Below are positions 34,587 to 40,193 of a stretch of DNA of 64,000 bases, one piece after another; the stretch's first letter is position 1; each line of letters opens with the position of its first letter. Where the stretch lies: assembly GCF_014647595.1 (NCBI RefSeq), contig NZ_BMPM01000008.1, positions 1 to 64,000 of the forward strand, in the 5' to 3' direction. The translations under genes were made by a program, and so were the position numbers. The notes under the pieces are model-generated. The model searched no databases. It had not been told where the DNA came from and was given only the letters and a program-made list of their open reading frames with translations. Origin of the DNA: Paenarthrobacter histidinolovorans. GTDB lineage: Bacteria > Actinomycetota > Actinomycetes > Actinomycetales > Micrococcaceae.

Positions 34587-34664
34587 AATGCGATCAGTTT
34601 AGCGCGGTACCCTCACCCGGCGCTGTGACGTACCAGACGTTCCGCCGGGTTGGATGGGCTGGCA

Positions 34665-34700
34665 GCATCCCGGGCCGTTCCAGGAAATGGCCCGGGATGC
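34665..34700 (-). terminator. Terminator after the monooxygenase/amidohydrolase operon
   Basis: GCATCCCGGGCC (34665-34676) pairs perfectly with GGCCCGGGATGC (34689-34700) around 12 bases, 12 bases past the OsmC-like stop. It marks the end of the four-gene operon. Confidence 0.85.
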
Positions 34701-34712
34701 AGACCTGAAGAA

Positions 34713-35273
34713 CTAAACGAGGGTAGTGATGACCTGCACCGGGTTTGCGAGGGTATCGCGGATTGGCGAGGTGGTTTCCAAAGCCTTCGCGAGGTCCGCG
34801 AGGACTTCGCGGGGCGCGTCAGGGCTTTCGAGTTCGACATCGACCTGAATGCTCGTGGCCCCTTTGCGGACGGAGTCGTCGATGCCGAGGAATCCGCTCA
34901 GATTGATATCGAAGCTGAGGGTGAGCTGGATCTTTTCAAGCGTGATGTTCCGTGAGGCGGCAAGAGTAGAGAGTGTAACGATGTAGCAACCCGCCAGGGC
35001 TTTGAGAACGTACTCCGCGGGGCTCGGCGCAGTGTCGGTGCCCAGCAAAGGGACCGGCTCGTCGCTGTGCAGTGTGTACTTTCCGTGGCGCGTCTCATCA
35101 GGGACACCTGCCTGCAGCAAGGGACCCGTCTCCGTCCTTGAGGTCAGTCCGCCGGCTGATTCGCTGAAGGCGGTGAACGTGACCTGCCCGAGTTCCCTCC
35201 GGGCGCTGACGGCTTCGACGGTTGCTTTGAGGGCGGCGGGGTCAACAAACGGGCGTGCAATGGTGGTGCTCAT
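34713..35273 (-). CDS. OsmC family protein with only one of the two usual cysteines
   Basis: A 186-residue OsmC/YhfA-like protein. The first conserved Cys is present (C96 in LKALAGCYIVTL). The second, normally in a CPV-D-TL motif, is replaced by Ser169 (TSPIRDTLANPV). Canonical OsmC/Ohr peroxidases need both for hydroperoxide reduction, so this one may act differently or bind a ligand. It is the fourth gene of the operon with the monooxygenase, amidohydrolase and flavin reductase, 66 bases after the reductase. A GAAGGAC site lies before the ATG. Confidence 0.88.
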   Translation of the reverse strand: MSTTIARPFVDPAALKATVEAVSARRELGQVTFTAFSESAGGLTSRTETGPLLQAGVPDETRHGKYTLHSDEPVPLLGTDTAPSPAEYVLKALAGCYIVTLSTLAASRNITLEKIQLTLSFDINLSGFLGIDDSVRKGATSIQVDVELESPDAPREVLADLAKALETTSPIRDTLANPVQVITTLV

Positions 35274-35339
35274 TCTTGTCCTTCGTTCGGCTTATCTGGG
35301 GTGCTCTTCATGGCATGTCTGGTCTCGACTCATGTCGGC

Positions 35340-35861
35340 TCAGAGCCATGTCTCCAAGGAGAACGGATCATGGCTGGGATGCGACGAATAAATCCCATAC
35401 CGTGCGCGGAAATAGAGGAGCGGATTTCCGTCTGTGGTGGACACGTTGTCGATGCGCCCAATGAAGATCGTGTGGTCGCCGGCGTCGATGATCTCGTGAT
35501 GCCGGCACTCAAGCCGCACCAGACAATGGCGCAGGTGCGGCACGGGCCCTTCCGATACAGGGCGATGGGCAAACTTGTCCCGACCTGCACGGGCGAAGCT
35601 CGCAGAGGTTTGATCCTGGTTCTCGCCGAGGATGTGAACGGCGTACGTCTCGGCGGTCCGGAACGACTGCATGCTGTGCGATCTGTTGTCCAAGCACCAC
35701 AGCATGAGCGGCGGGTCGATCGAAACTGCCGTGAAGCTGGTGGCGGTGACACCAATTGGTGAGCCATCGGGTGCTTGTGTTGTAACTACGCAGACACCGC
35801 TCGCCCAGCGTGAGAAAGCTTCCCGGACGTCTGCTGCCGTTGTTTCGGTAACCTCAGGCAT
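35340..35861 (-). CDS. Flavin reductase family protein (probable partner of the monooxygenase)
   Basis: A 173-residue HpaC/StyB-type NAD(P)H:flavin reductase with FSRWASGVCVVTTQAPDGSP, GVTATSFTAVSIDPPLMLWC and the C-terminal LLYFRARY region. It supplies reduced FAD to a two-component monooxygenase, and the StyA-like gene two genes upstream is the evident partner. It lies 15 bases after the amidohydrolase stop. The ATG at 35861 follows a weak site, consistent with coupled translation. Confidence 0.92.
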   Translation of the reverse strand: MPEVTETTAADVREAFSRWASGVCVVTTQAPDGSPIGVTATSFTAVSIDPPLMLWCLDNRSHSMQSFRTAETYAVHILGENQDQTSASFARAGRDKFAHRPVSEGPVPHLRHCLVRLECRHHEIIDAGDHTIFIGRIDNVSTTDGNPLLYFRARYGIYSSHPSHDPFSLETWL

Positions 35862-35876
35862 ATCTTGGCCGCCGTT

Positions 35877-37304
35877 TCACTCGGCGGCCATATTGGCCAG
35901 GCAGTAAGCGTTGAAGGCTGCGTTTTCTTCCCGCCATTGTGGCGACATGGCGAAGGGTGCGCGGGCCCCCGCGGCATACACTCGCTCATGACTTTCTTCG
36001 GCGCGGGAACGCAGGTCTTGCAGATCGACGCCCAGGAGCTCGCCGTGGTTCTTGACCAGCCGCCCGTCCACGGCGACTGCGTTCACGTTCCTGGAACTCG
36101 TATACAGCGGATACGACTCTATGGGCTCGGGCAGTGGCACGAGTGACATTCCTTCCGGCTTGAGCAAGACAACATCGCCCCGTTTGCCAGGTGTGAGGCT
36201 GCCTACTTGCGTGCCAAGGCCCAGGGCTTCGGCTCCTCGAACGGTTGCCATTTCCAGGAAATAGCGCATCGGCACTCCCACCGATCCGATGAGCTCACCG
36301 CGCGCGACGGTATCAGCATGCAGGGCTCCCCGTGTGACAGCGAGGGACAGCCGGATCATCCCGAAAAGGTCGCCGTTGATCAAGGGGGCAAAGTCAGCTC
36401 CGAAGCCTGTTTTCAGGCCTTTCTGAAACGCCCTGTGAAGTACAACGGGCCCTTCGCCCATGCCCAGTTCGGAATCATGCACCACCGCGATCGAGGCACC
36501 GGCGTCGCGGACCATGTCGAGTTGTTCATCGCTCAGCAGTACACCGTGGGAAAGGACGAAGTCCGGACCCAGCAGCCCTTGGTCCACCAGTTCGTTGAGT
36601 CCGGTAGACACAGCCAGCCCTGGCGCACACGCCATATGGAGTGTGATGAGACCGCCAAGCTCACGCCCGACGGCGATCTCCTTTTTGGTTTGTGACCAAG
36701 GCACCATCCCGGTCTCAGACAATGCAACGCCAAATCCCAGCAGCGGGTTGTCTTCAAGCGACTTGGCAATACGGCGGGCATCCCGGTAGCGGTCCTCCGG
36801 TGAGTCGAACCCTGAATGCTCCGCATGGCCGTCGTGAAAGCCATAACCGAAGACGGCACGGATCCCTGCTCTCCGCAGCCCTTCAACTGCGGCATCCGCG
36901 TACTCCGGTCCGATGATGTTGTGCGAGTGATCGAACACCGTTGTAATGCCGGCGTCCAGGGCCTCCAGTGCGCCCAGATGGTTGCCGAGGAAAATGTCCT
37001 CGACGCCGAACAGGTTGACGACGTTCTGCCGGACGAACTCGAGGTACTCCATCAGCGTGTGGTCCACGTTGAGGCCGCGCAAGCATGTCATCCAACAGTG
37101 CCGGTGGGTGTCCACGAAGCCTGGAGTAATGATGCCGCCCTTGGCATCGACCACCACGGTGTCTCCGCGAGGCGTCGGGGCTTCGGGCCCAACGTAGGTA
37201 ATGACCCCGTCTTCGATCAGCACATCTCCGTGGTCGATGACGCCGAGTTGATCGTCCATTGTGACGATCCGCCCGCCTTTGAAAATGAGGTTTCCTTGTG
37301 ACAT
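35877..37304 (-). CDS. Metal-dependent amidohydrolase (ATZ/TRZ-like)
   Basis: A 475-residue amidohydrolase-superfamily enzyme. Metal ligands are visible at H67 and H69 (VDTHRHCW), H223 (ITLHMAC), with H253 (LSHGVLL) and D277 (VVHDSEL). The N-terminal (FKGGRIVTMDD) and C-terminal (LTPGKRGDVVLLK) beta-sandwich parts are typical. ATZ/TRZ and SAH-deaminase relatives carry Glu three residues after the third His (HxxE); here that position is Cys226, so ordinary deaminase chemistry is doubtful. The substrate is unknown, but the operon suggests an oxidised product of the neighbouring monooxygenase. It starts 35 bases after that gene. Confidence 0.88.
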   Translation of the reverse strand: MSQGNLIFKGGRIVTMDDQLGVIDHGDVLIEDGVITYVGPEAPTPRGDTVVVDAKGGIITPGFVDTHRHCWMTCLRGLNVDHTLMEYLEFVRQNVVNLFGVEDIFLGNHLGALEALDAGITTVFDHSHNIIGPEYADAAVEGLRRAGIRAVFGYGFHDGHAEHSGFDSPEDRYRDARRIAKSLEDNPLLGFGVALSETGMVPWSQTKKEIAVGRELGGLITLHMACAPGLAVSTGLNELVDQGLLGPDFVLSHGVLLSDEQLDMVRDAGASIAVVHDSELGMGEGPVVLHRAFQKGLKTGFGADFAPLINGDLFGMIRLSLAVTRGALHADTVARGELIGSVGVPMRYFLEMATVRGAEALGLGTQVGSLTPGKRGDVVLLKPEGMSLVPLPEPIESYPLYTSSRNVNAVAVDGRLVKNHGELLGVDLQDLRSRAEESHERVYAAGARAPFAMSPQWREENAAFNAYCLANMAAE

Positions 37305-37339
37305 GACTGGAATCGCTTTCTTTGAAGGGTGTTGGCGGT

Positions 37340-38707
37340 TTAGGCGCGGGGAAAATATGGGAGGCCCTGCGCGTGCAGTTGCTCGGCTTCCTTGATGCGG
37401 GACAGCGACCGCCCCAGGATTTCGTCCGCAGTCTCACCCGGGCACAACTGCTCTATCCAGGCGTGCACGGCAGCGATGTCTTTGAAGGGAAGTGCCGATT
37501 GGGGGCGGGAAAGCAATTGAAAGAACCCGTCCGCAACGCGCCGATCGCCGTTCGACGCCAGAAATATGGTTTCGTTTACTGAGCCACCGGCGTCTTGATC
37601 CAGCAGGATACTGGTGAGGGCAGTAGACGCCTGACCGGATTTATGGAAAAAGTCCTCGAAGGTGGAACGGATCCACTCCGCGTCGAAGGGGCCGTCGTGG
37701 GATTCGAGTGCGTCAAGGTAATGGCCAACCTGCTTCATTCCCGACTGTGCGCCTTGCGCGCCGATGGGGTCGAAGGTCATCGACGTGTCCCCAAGCGACA
37801 TCACGGCGTGGCCGGATGCCGTAAACCCCACCGCATCCCGAACCGTGGGCTTCACCCGTCCCTTCAGCCAGGAAAAACGGTCATCAGGGATGACTTCAGC
37901 GTTCGCGATGAAGGCCGCGTCCCACGGGAGGAATTCCTTGTGGAGCCCCTTGACGGTCTCCAACATCTCTTGGGCGTTGCTGGGAGAGGAGAGGCGTTCC
38001 TCCCATTCCGTCCCGATCCTTCCAAAGCCGAGAAAGCTCCAGGACGGTCCTGCCGTCTTGTGCAGGTAGGGACACCAGATGGTCTCGCCCATGTCACCTA
38101 CGATCGAGAATGCGTTGTAGGCGCCCCCGTGATCGGATCGGTGGGCGAACGCTGAGCTGTCAGTCGGCAAGCCAGTGACCGTGATCATTGCCAGCGCGCG
38201 CTGCGGCTCGGTGTACTTGCTCCGGGCTGCATTGCCGGCGAACAGGTCTGTTAGCCCGCGCTTGCCGGTGGCGACGAAAGTGAGGTCATGTGCCGCAGCG
38301 ATCGTGTCCAGTGATTCGGGGGAGACATCCTCCACGATGAAGGTGCCGCCCAAGCGAATGAATTCATTGACGCGGTCGAACGAGCGAAGACGTGTGTCCA
38401 CCCCCACCCCTGGCATGTCACCCAGGGACCCTGCCATAGCCATGACTTCCATTCCCGAGGAGGAAGACACCCAGCCGGTCAGGCCTTCAATCAGCGGAGC
38501 CTTATCCCGGTACGTGTGCAGGCCTAGTCGCTCCTCTACAGCCAAGGCCTCTCCGTACATGACCGCTGTACCTGTGGCTGGGACGTCCTCATACAAGCTT
38601 TGTGGAGACCTGTCGCTGTAGAGCGCGACTTCGTGGCCCTTGCTCAGCAAAGCCAGTGCGAACGTCGCACCGGTTTGGCCGGCACCGATGATGGCAAACC
38701 TGGACAT
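37340..38707 (-). CDS. Styrene/indole monooxygenase-like flavoprotein (StyA family)
   Basis: A 455-residue group E flavoprotein monooxygenase. The FAD-binding GAGQTG motif is at residues 8-13 (FAIIGAGQTGATFALALLSK). The StyA-family region SIVGDMGETIWCPYLHKTAG, and VMSLGDTSMTFDPIGAQGAQ near residue 300, with its G-D-x4-D-P motif, support the call. Known members epoxidise styrene or indole using FADH2 from a partner reductase, here probably the product of 35340-35861. Pairing with an amidohydrolase is not part of the known styrene or indole pathways, so the substrate is open. The start at 38707 has AAAGGAG; the extension to 38965 is repeat sequence. First gene of the operon. Confidence 0.9.
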   Translation of the reverse strand: MSRFAIIGAGQTGATFALALLSKGHEVALYSDRSPQSLYEDVPATGTAVMYGEALAVEERLGLHTYRDKAPLIEGLTGWVSSSSGMEVMAMAGSLGDMPGVGVDTRLRSFDRVNEFIRLGGTFIVEDVSPESLDTIAAAHDLTFVATGKRGLTDLFAGNAARSKYTEPQRALAMITVTGLPTDSSAFAHRSDHGGAYNAFSIVGDMGETIWCPYLHKTAGPSWSFLGFGRIGTEWEERLSSPSNAQEMLETVKGLHKEFLPWDAAFIANAEVIPDDRFSWLKGRVKPTVRDAVGFTASGHAVMSLGDTSMTFDPIGAQGAQSGMKQVGHYLDALESHDGPFDAEWIRSTFEDFFHKSGQASTALTSILLDQDAGGSVNETIFLASNGDRRVADGFFQLLSRPQSALPFKDIAAVHAWIEQLCPGETADEILGRSLSRIKEAEQLHAQGLPYFPRA

Positions 38708-38919
38708 ATTCACTCCTTTGTTCTCGTGGTGGTAAGGGGTGCCGCCAAGGCTGCAAGCCAAGGTTGGGCATTCAGGGGTGAGTCCGCGAAGGGTGTCCTT
38801 CCGGACCTTGACGCTTGTGCGTGGGAGACGTTTGATGAGCTGTACATGGCTCGGAACGCGGGAGTGGGCCAGACTATCGCGGCACCCCCCAAGGATCTGC
38901 CGCGCGTCGTCGTTGGCTT

Positions 38920-38967
38920 TTTTCCTGCGCCACCGTTTTCCTGCACCACCGTCTTCCTGCGCCACCG
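38920..38967. repeat. Tandem repeat, three 16-bp units
   Basis: Units TTTTCCTGCGCCACCG, TTTTCCTGCACCACCG and TCTTCCTGCGCCACCG follow each other without gaps. The last half-unit also forms an 8-bp stem (GCCACCGT with ACGGTGGC, 38961-38985). The array is 213 bases upstream of the monooxygenase start. Confidence 0.85.
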
Positions 38968-39414
38968 TAAAGCCACGACGGTGGCTTCATTCCGGACTGG
39001 GGCGGAGCGCCCCGCTGTTCTTCGTTGAAGTCGTCAGTGGAGCGTCCGGGCTGTTGCCCGGTTTGGTGTTCGAGCAGCTACGGGGTCCTGCTCTTGATGT
39101 TCATCGCGGCTCCGTGGCGGCCTCGGCACTGTATCGCTGCCCCGAAAGTCCCGACGCTTGAATATCACCAGCTTCATCGCTGACTCTCCATTATTCACAA
39201 TAAATTTGGGCGTGAGTCCATTAATACTCCTAGCCTTGGTTAGCAGTCAATAACCGGCTGGATATTCTTTTAAGATGAGCACAACCATGGAATATGTACA
39301 TGGATCTAAACTAATTTTCCGATGGAATCGCCCTCGTGTGGAAGCCTCATCGATTCATGACCTCATCGAGTCACGGTTGACGGGTCGCCGGAAACGGACC
39401 CTCCTGTACTGTGT

Positions 39415-39471
39415 GCTGTGGAAAGTACCGGGTGCCCGTGAAAGTACCTGGTGCTGTGGAAGTAACCGTGT
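39415..39471. repeat. Tandem repeat, three 19-bp units, next to the TetR gene
   Basis: The units are GTGCTGTGGAAAGTACCGG, GTGCCCGTGAAAGTACCTG and GTGCTGTGGAAGTAACCGT, adjacent and in phase, ending 26 bases before the TetR start. They could be iterated regulator sites for autoregulation. The period of 19 is not a whole number of helical turns. Confidence 0.75.
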
Positions 39472-39497
39472 GGTTTTGAAAGGGACGGAGATCAGAG

Positions 39498-40193
39498 ATG
39501 CGCACACCCCCTGACGAGACCTCCACAATGGAGCCTTCCGGCCGCCGGGAACGTAAGCGCATCCACACGAGCCGACGCCTCTACGAAGCTGCAATGCAGC
39601 TTTTTGAGGAGCAAGGGTACGACGAAACCACCATGGACGAGATCGCCGATCTCGCTGATACGGCCCGGCAGACCGTGTACAACTATTTCCCGCGCAAGAG
39701 CTCGTTTATCGATGAGTGGGCGGCGCGCAGGCGGAGCCTGGCCGTCGCCGGACTTGAGAAGCCGGAAACCAGCAACCGACCCATCGCCGAACAAATCTCG
39801 CTGTTCATTCGCAACCTGGTCCACATCAACTTGCAGACGAAACAGCTCACGCACGTCCTGATTCCCGCTTGGGTGCGTGCCGGCGGGCCGATAGACGATG
39901 CCCCGGCCCTGTCCGATCTCATAGTGGACTTCGTGAAATTAGGCCAGCAGAGAGGGGAGTTGGATCCGACGCGCGATCCAACCCGTGCGAGCAACCTGAT
40001 CCGGGAAGCCTATCTCGGGGCGCTCTATCAATGGGTCAGCACTGGCTCCGGGGAGAATTTCGACCTCAGCGAGGCGGTGGACGATAGCCTGCAGATCATC
40101 TTCCACGGACTGACGAAACCGCATGCAGACTCAGACGGCGGAGTCACTGGGAAAGTGGCTCAAACCGGGTCACGAAGCAGCGCGGGCTCGTAG
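39498..40193 (+). CDS. TetR family transcriptional regulator
   Basis: A 231-residue regulator. The N-terminal HTH (RLYEAAMQLFEEQGYDETTM, then IADLADTARQTVYNYFPRKS) is typical; the C-terminal ligand domain is unassigned. It is divergent from the monooxygenase operon and is the natural candidate for its regulator. The ATG at 39498 has GGAGAT upstream. Its last 34 bases overlap the rhaB 3' end on the other strand, and its C-terminal tail (about 20 residues, Gly/Ser-rich) lies in that overlap, so the stop may have moved during rearrangement. Confidence 0.9.
   Translation: MRTPPDETSTMEPSGRRERKRIHTSRRLYEAAMQLFEEQGYDETTMDEIADLADTARQTVYNYFPRKSSFIDEWAARRRSLAVAGLEKPETSNRPIAEQISLFIRNLVHINLQTKQLTHVLIPAWVRAGGPIDDAPALSDLIVDFVKLGQQRGELDPTRDPTRASNLIREAYLGALYQWVSTGSGENFDLSEAVDDSLQIIFHGLTKPHADSDGGVTGKVAQTGSRSSAGS

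Follow-up and report, generated by a model that had tools for sequence, protein, structure and literature searches.

The locus holds four genes on one strand and a divergent TetR gene

A 64,000-nucleotide stretch of Paenarthrobacter histidinolovorans DNA (contig NZ_BMPM01000008.1, positions 1 to 64,000; the window in the following) harbors four minus-strand genes at 34713-38707 and a plus-strand TetR gene, which an initial annotation made from the sequence alone had singled out as an uncharacterised catabolic operon. In the order of transcription the four genes encode a StyA-like oxygenase, an amidohydrolase, a flavin reductase and an OsmC-like protein (Table 1). The arrangement described in that annotation, with gaps of 35, 15 and 66 bases between the four genes, a hairpin at their end and an opposed TetR gene, was recovered in full. 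All five products scored above the cut-offs of their Pfam families (Smoa_sbd 44.8 bits, cut-off 25; Amidohydro_1 85.2, cut-off 25; Flavin_Reduct 129.2, cut-off 27; OsmC 67.2, cut-off 27.5; TetR_N 52.1, cut-off 24), the last of which identifies a TetR DNA-binding domain. The TetR and oxygenase genes are arranged back to back, and at 40160-40193 the 3' ends of the TetR gene and rhaB overlap.

Table 1. Positions of the genes and other features of the locus within the window.
Feature	Position	Strand	Basis or remark
StyA-like group E flavoprotein monooxygenase, oxygenase component, 455 aa	37340..38707	-	Pfam Smoa_sbd; fold matches
Metal-dependent amidohydrolase (TRZ/ATZ-like, NF006056/PRK08204 subfamily), 475 aa	35877..37304	-	NF006056, 404.8 bits
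Flavin reductase, presumed partner of the monooxygenase, 173 aa	35340..35861	-	Pfam Flavin_Reduct
OsmC-like protein, single cysteine C96, 186 aa	34713..35273	-	Pfam OsmC
TetR-family regulator, divergent from the operon, 231 aa	39498..40193	+	Pfam TetR_N; Gordonia asplenii counterpart 55% identical
Hairpin with 12-bp stem after the last gene, probable transcription end	34665..34700	-	Fold -34.7 kcal/mol, z = -3.2
Divergent intergenic region, 790 bp; promoters and operator expected here	38708..39497	none	Short tandem repeats inside
Extra segment relative to the panD-rhaB sites of seven relatives	34643..40181	none	Homology ends and resumes at the borders

The stem of the hairpin is perfect, and none of 200 shuffled versions of the 73-nt surroundings, to which the folding energy in Table 1 refers, was as stable. 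The hairpin has no clear T-run, and a consensus terminator scan, which covered loops of 3-8 only, listed six other sites and not this one.

The unit recurs in Gordonia asplenii and is rare elsewhere

A pattern scan of the genome_contigs collection, based on a four-sequence alignment, gave 206 pattern matches, of which 148 were confirmed as relatives of the oxygenase; the best 80 were examined, 68 weaker confirmed relatives lie outside this set, and the pattern step can miss relatives. The whole unit was present at one of the 80 loci, in Gordonia asplenii TBRC 11910, with the same gene order and a homologous divergent TetR gene. Identity between the two loci was 58.9% for the oxygenase, 68.6% for the amidohydrolase, 50.9% for the flavin reductase, 48.4% for the OsmC-like protein and 54.6% for TetR. 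Differences are in all five genes most frequent at third codon positions (52-60%) and least frequent at second positions (19-36%), as expected for proteins under selection. Because all five frames are conserved in G. asplenii with differences concentrated at third positions, they are regarded as real genes. The G. asplenii locus additionally carries an FAH-family gene and an acyl-CoA ligase gene, which are placed between the TetR and oxygenase genes on the oxygenase strand.

Searches at fixed thresholds gave a similarly narrow distribution. With the oxygenase (P0001, E <= 1e-60) as query, 5 of 394 genomes of the class were matched, the window's own among them and the other four at 38-45% identity, while 30 of 59 genomes in the genus of G961 were matched, the sole copy above 39% being that of G961 itself. 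The amidohydrolase (P0002) matched at E <= 1e-90 a single genome of 206 congeners, the window's own, and at E <= 1e-80 four of 401 genomes in the family of G127 (G961 at 69%, three others at 37-39%). A scan of viral contigs revealed no relative; 0 of 37 genomes in the genus of G876 gave a match at E <= 1e-35, an empty answer that shows nothing as it was obtained without a positive control. A wide family carrying the whole operon, which was considered as well, was found in none of the class, congener, family and genus searches and was rejected. The check for co-occurrence that had been proposed at the outset thus turned up the complete set in a single further genome within the collections covered; the combination exists outside the window and is rare.

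The unit forms an extra segment between rhaB and panD

The distance between rhaB and panD is 5579 bp in the window, whereas it is 217, 184, 195 and 215 bp in G039, G060, G023 and G033 and 773, 1292 and 1188 bp in G034, G048 and G008. Apart from the window's own genome, these seven gave the closest rhaB matches (83-89%). At the threshold used rhaB was matched in 48 of 61 genomes and panD in all 61. For the remaining 40 rhaB-positive genomes the tables, read by eye, place the best rhaB and panD matches on separate contigs or several hundred kb from each other. DNA homology to the short sites breaks off at 34638-34645 and begins again at 40164-40187, which brackets the operon and nearly all of the TetR gene. 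The GC content of the segment is 60.0%, compared with 63.7% in the rest of the window, and Pfam identified no transposase or integrase among its five genes.

The unit is accessory, rarely shared and operon-like. Its treatment as a single unit, put forward initially from gene spacing, gains support from the repetition of the five-gene order in G. asplenii and from its confinement to a discrete extra segment at one site. The segment was probably gained in the window strain rather than lost in the relatives, since no close match to the amidohydrolase was found in the other 205 congeners (E <= 1e-90). Junction length also varies among the relatives, with 184-217 bp in four and 773-1292 bp in three, and the junction may be a site prone to insertion.

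The oxygenase belongs to group E, outside the styrene and indole monooxygenase groups

Assignment of the oxygenase to the group E flavoprotein monooxygenases is based on its Smoa_sbd domain, a GAGQTG motif at the FAD site and Z-scores of 41-46 to eight rows of indole and styrene monooxygenases. The separate flavin reductase that characterizes this group is encoded two positions downstream and is the presumed partner. The predicted model (mean pLDDT 89.4) matched indole monooxygenases best, with Z 45.6-46.4 over 405-408 residues (9lrq: Z 46.4, root-mean-square deviation 1.8 over 405 residues; 7z4x: Z 46.1), ahead of styrene monooxygenases (Z 41.1-41.6; 3ihm 41.5) and p-hydroxybenzoate hydroxylase (Z 28).

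According to the available text of PMC13101512, styrene enzymes carry the fingerprint N46 V48 H50 Y73 H76 S96 and indole enzymes S46 Q48 M50 V/I73 I76 A96 (StyA numbering). The residues of the window oxygenase are G46 A48 M50 I73 L76 G96, which agree with none of the six styrene positions and with two of the six indole positions (M50, I73). Its NF045732 score of 103.7 bits lies below the equivalog cut-off (550), and it is not assigned to StyA. In a tree of 31 rows the window and G. asplenii oxygenases form a pair (99/98) within a set of 15 rows (100/99) that also holds homologues from Nocardia, Antrihabitans, Jongsikchunia, Mycolicibacterium, Williamsia, Tsukamurella and the genus of G961. The reference rows of indole monooxygenases with E2 enzymes (seven rows, 100/99) and of styrene monooxygenases each form one group elsewhere in the tree. 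Two homologues were left out: L057, which has a stop in its translation, from the fingerprint table and the tree, and L149, the G. asplenii protein with another start, from the tree. A change from G to A at StyA position 305 (DPxxGQGA to DPIGAQGA) is confined to the window and G. asplenii enzymes (2 of 31).

As it has neither fingerprint and falls outside both reference groups, assignment of the oxygenase to the styrene/indole type in the strict sense is not supported; what stands of the initial description as a styrene/indole-type epoxidase is the fold, which is closest to indole monooxygenases. Styrene catabolism was rejected on fingerprint and neighbours, and a canonical indole operon on fingerprint, tree position and neighbours. 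Indole-3-carboxylate monooxygenase, which was also considered, is an unrelated group A enzyme according to the accessible text of PMC6692525. The same genome encodes on another contig an E2-type pair of a StyA1-like gene and a StyA2B-like fusion (G000:C11:76577-78965, L125), which carry five and six of the six indole residues and are 32% identical to the window oxygenase.

The amidohydrolase, the flavin reductase and the OsmC-like protein

The amidohydrolase exceeds the cut-off of NF006056 (391 bits), an NCBIfam model that is still named 'hypothetical protein'. It retains H67, H69, H223, H253 and D304, which we take to be the metal ligands of the superfamily. After the beta-5 histidine AtzA has the sequence HMAE and the window enzyme HMAC, and a glutamate occurs at this position in none of the seven aligned family members, the window enzyme included. 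This glutamate is presumably the catalytic one in TRZ/ATZ deaminases and chlorohydrolases.

FAH-family genes recur near relatives of this amidohydrolase. Such a gene was present in the fetched stretch at six of eight loci, or at five of seven without G. asplenii, compared with one of 79 monooxygenase-relative loci without the operon; the control loci are not matched for species or gene content, so that the figures give a contrast and not a significance test. The seven other relatives are 36-39% identical to the window enzyme, and no StyA-like neighbour was noted at their loci. Five of the loci (L113, L114, L120, L121 and L122) show a recurrent module of an NF006056-like amidohydrolase and an FAH-family gene, again with no StyA-like gene noted, and some of them also have a putative cyclase, a metallo-beta-lactamase (MBL) hydrolase or an AMP ligase.

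The flavin reductase matched models of the StyB, HpaC and FerA type below their equivalog cut-offs. In the OsmC-like protein C96 is the sole cysteine and a serine stands at position 169, both residues being common to all five aligned sequences. OsmC/Ohr thiol peroxidases have, as we assume, two redox cysteines, the second of which would be expected at the position of S169; with one cysteine and S169 the protein is not a classical two-cysteine peroxidase.

An OsmC-like relative on plasmid pRHL1 of R. jostii is 66-68% identical to that of the window. The same plasmid carries, 2.7 kb from it, two StyA-like genes with a styrene-type fingerprint that are one gene apart (L145 5941-9595). A link between them was dropped, because the OsmC gene stands beside a gene resembling, by eye, thioredoxin reductase and is separated from the StyA-like gene by a regulator-like gene. 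Of the 25 top-scoring plasmid rows, 22, nearly all of them from enterobacteria, are taken up by a related single-cysteine OsmC-like gene (L146 6001-6558, 54.6%), which in the single copy examined lies among transposase genes.

The divergent intergenic region

Two sets of tandem repeats were detected between the TetR and oxygenase genes, three copies of a 16-bp repeat at 38920-38967 and three copies spaced by 19 bp at 39406-39481. Neither set was matched in plasmids or in the rest of the genome. A promoter scan of the region gave one site where 1.4 were expected. The intergenic regions of the window and G. asplenii have two 10-mers in common, for which a chance level was not computed.

A candidate operon for the oxidation and hydrolysis of an N-heteroaromatic compound

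Taken together, these observations are best explained by an acquired, inducible, TetR-controlled catabolic operon for the oxygenation of an indole-like or other N-heteroaromatic ring and the subsequent hydrolysis of the product, a reading to which we assign a probability of about 45%. Co-transcription, regulation, the class of substrate and the order of reactions are inferred. A small aromatic ligand would release TetR from the 790-bp divergent region, upon which the four genes would be transcribed together. The flavin reductase would use NADH to supply FADH2 to the StyA-like oxygenase, which via a C4a-hydroperoxyflavin would epoxidise or hydroxylate the ring. The amidohydrolase could subsequently hydrolyse the oxidised ring at a lactam, an imine or a ring C-N/C-X bond, yielding an open-ring acid or amine, while the single-cysteine OsmC protein might protect against peroxide or reactive intermediates or act on a thiol adduct. 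In G. asplenii the FAH-family hydrolase and the acyl-CoA ligase of the same gene row may carry the product into central metabolism; in the window strain other genes would replace them, or the route would stop at detoxification.

Several observations weigh against this interpretation. The whole unit has been recorded in two genomes only, and in other loci amidohydrolase and oxygenase genes occur apart, with no amidohydrolase near the oxygenase at 79 of the 80 examined loci. The window genome contains no close copy of the G. asplenii FAH-family protein (best 40%) or ligase (best 34%). As the amidohydrolase lacks the AtzA-type glutamate, an amide or imine reaction cannot be assumed for it, and its predicted structure (mean pLDDT 44) is too poor to use. 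No palindrome common to the intergenic regions of the window and G. asplenii was found among the best listed in an operator search. The largest group among the oxygenase homologues encountered, from Nocardia and its kin, is located near sulfur-scavenging genes and not near N-heterocycle genes. Of the sequence of events proposed initially, oxidation of a ring followed by amide or imine hydrolysis, the general outline remains plausible; the type of hydrolysis is put in doubt by the missing glutamate, and organosulfur substrates are still to be considered.

A more specific version, which we hold to be possible if rather doubtful, is that of a new route in which a further line of group E enzymes oxidises the N-heteroaromatic ring, a glutamate-less NF006056 amidohydrolase opens it and, in Gordonia, the CoA ligase and FAH-family protein follow. 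If true, this would be the first role of the unnamed NF006056 family in an oxidative ring-opening pathway.

Alternative functions of the unit

The genes could instead form an organosulfur operon, in which the oxygenase would produce a sulfoxide or an activated thio-heterocycle and the amidohydrolase and OsmC-like protein would process the product for carbon or sulfur. We consider this unlikely, yet it is a serious rival because the Nocardia relatives of the monooxygenase are often found near SfnB and SfnG genes. A gene for SfnG (dimethylsulfone monooxygenase) is present on the same strand at 57 of the 80 examined loci, and at 51 it lies no more than 1 kb downstream; an SfnB-like gene, also on that strand, is present at 68 (median distance 1.56 kb, 12 within 1 kb upstream). 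In a separately fetched N. farcinica copy SfnG scored 633.8 bits, with a cut-off of 383; the SfnB-like protein, however, remained below its equivalog cut-off (265.9 against 430.9), and 12 of the 80 loci have neither gene. In addition, VpStyA1, itself of group E, turns over benzyl methyl sulfide more rapidly than styrene, with 3.11 and 0.46 U/mg in the abstract and '25 to 26-times' in the accessible text of PMC6017014. On the other side, the G. asplenii locus has neither SfnG nor SfnB, no gene of the window unit belongs to these families, and the pair of window and G. asplenii oxygenases is separate from the 13-row group with the Nocardia enzymes (100/99). In our judgement an N-heteroaromatic substrate is more likely than a sulfur compound. 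For the Nocardia-group homologues themselves (L001, L031-L110) the neighbourhoods suggest a sulfur-scavenging role; such homologues in Nocardia are discussed as SkaA homologues in the available text of PMC13101512.

Slightly less probable still is an operon for skatole or another 3-substituted indole, with the oxygenase as a divergent SkaMO, that is, a member of the third group E branch, and the amidohydrolase opening an oxindole. The absence of both fingerprints, which the text available to us of PMC13101512 gives for SkaMOs, applies to the window oxygenase, and the same source names Arthrobacter, Pseudarthrobacter and Gordonia among the genera in which SkaA homologues reach 40% identity or more. 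In the midpoint-rooted tree the oxygenase is on the side of the relative from Acinetobacter SH20PTE14 (96/89), which adjoins ring-hydroxylating dioxygenase genes in an order that fits the gene numbers of the skatole-oxidising p38 gene1687 region, as far as these are given in the accessible part of PMC11434297. However, the operon has no ring-hydroxylating dioxygenase like that of the ska cluster, and homologues in sulfur and nucleoside contexts are found on the same side of the tree. With sulfur, nucleoside and skatole-type contexts among the relatives, tree position does not fix the substrate.

Least likely, the unit represents no single pathway but resistance or cometabolic cargo, in which the oxygenase with its reductase and the amidohydrolase act on different xenobiotics and were joined by gene transfer; the mostly disjoint occurrence of amidohydrolase and oxygenase loci, the former with FAH-family rather than StyA-like neighbours, does point to separate histories, but gene order has been kept at 48-69% identity across two families, the divergence is rich in third positions, and both loci have a homologous TetR.

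Relation to known systems

Regarding the claim that an amidohydrolase and an OsmC protein are not part of the styrene and indole pathways, neither gene was found at five styrene/indole-type loci within 1.5-5 kb of flanking sequence. A search of open-licence PMC papers found none in which an amidohydrolase or OsmC gene neighbours a styrene-type monooxygenase; in the accessible portions of PMC6801914, PMC4572682 and PMC7232204 mentions of amidohydrolase or OsmC are unconnected with such a gene set, and in the main text of PMC13101512, as available, neither term occurs. The combination of enzymes is one for which no description was found in the open-licence literature, and it is built from known families. 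If the proposed function is true, it would join a monooxygenase line without settled substrate and an unnamed amidohydrolase subfamily in one testable pathway; the three enzymes (oxygenase, reductase and hydrolase) lend themselves to a joint assay, and relatives with and without the extra segment offer a natural comparison. Caution is advisable in calling every group E enzyme a styrene/indole monooxygenase, since sulfur, nucleoside and amidohydrolase contexts all occur among relatives on this enzyme's side of the tree.

The window oxygenase and its reductase have the fold and two-component architecture of StyA/StyB from Pseudomonas VLB120 (NF045732/NF045733; Z 41.5 to 3ihm), whereas identity to StyA in structural alignments is 23-24% and the unit lacks a styrene oxide isomerase gene. 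The closest solved structures (Z about 46) are those of the indole monooxygenases, a group including VpIndA1, the Acinetobacter baumannii enzyme and E2-type StyA1/StyA2B; the AraC regulator and short-chain dehydrogenase/reductase (SDR) neighbours of three indole-type loci are absent from the window unit. Like the window enzyme, SkaA is described in the available text of PMC13101512 as a group E enzyme outside the styrene and indole monooxygenases and with neither fingerprint; unlike the ska cluster, the window operon contains an amidohydrolase and an OsmC gene and no ring-hydroxylating dioxygenase. For the amidohydrolase AtzA is the best-scoring solved relative, and in contrast to its NF006056/PRK08204 relatives its neighbour in the window strain is a flavin monooxygenase and not an FAH-family gene.

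A parallel is provided by a plasmid of Agrobacterium vitis (L004 160-12150), on which a related monooxygenase is followed by a flavin reductase and a dihydropyrimidinase-like cyclic amidohydrolase, together with nucleoside hydrolases, a ribokinase and an ABC transporter. Of 52 plasmid records, the second best was less than 40% identical. From its gene content the A. vitis cluster looks like one for oxidative nucleobase catabolism. Both systems combine a TGTA-motif monooxygenase, a flavin reductase and a hydrolase of the amidohydrolase superfamily, while the dihydropyrimidinase-like type of the hydrolase and the nucleoside hydrolases, ribokinase and transporter distinguish the A. vitis cluster from the window. 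Pathways in which a ring is first oxidised and then hydrolysed may, as this parallel suggests, have been put together on more than one occasion.

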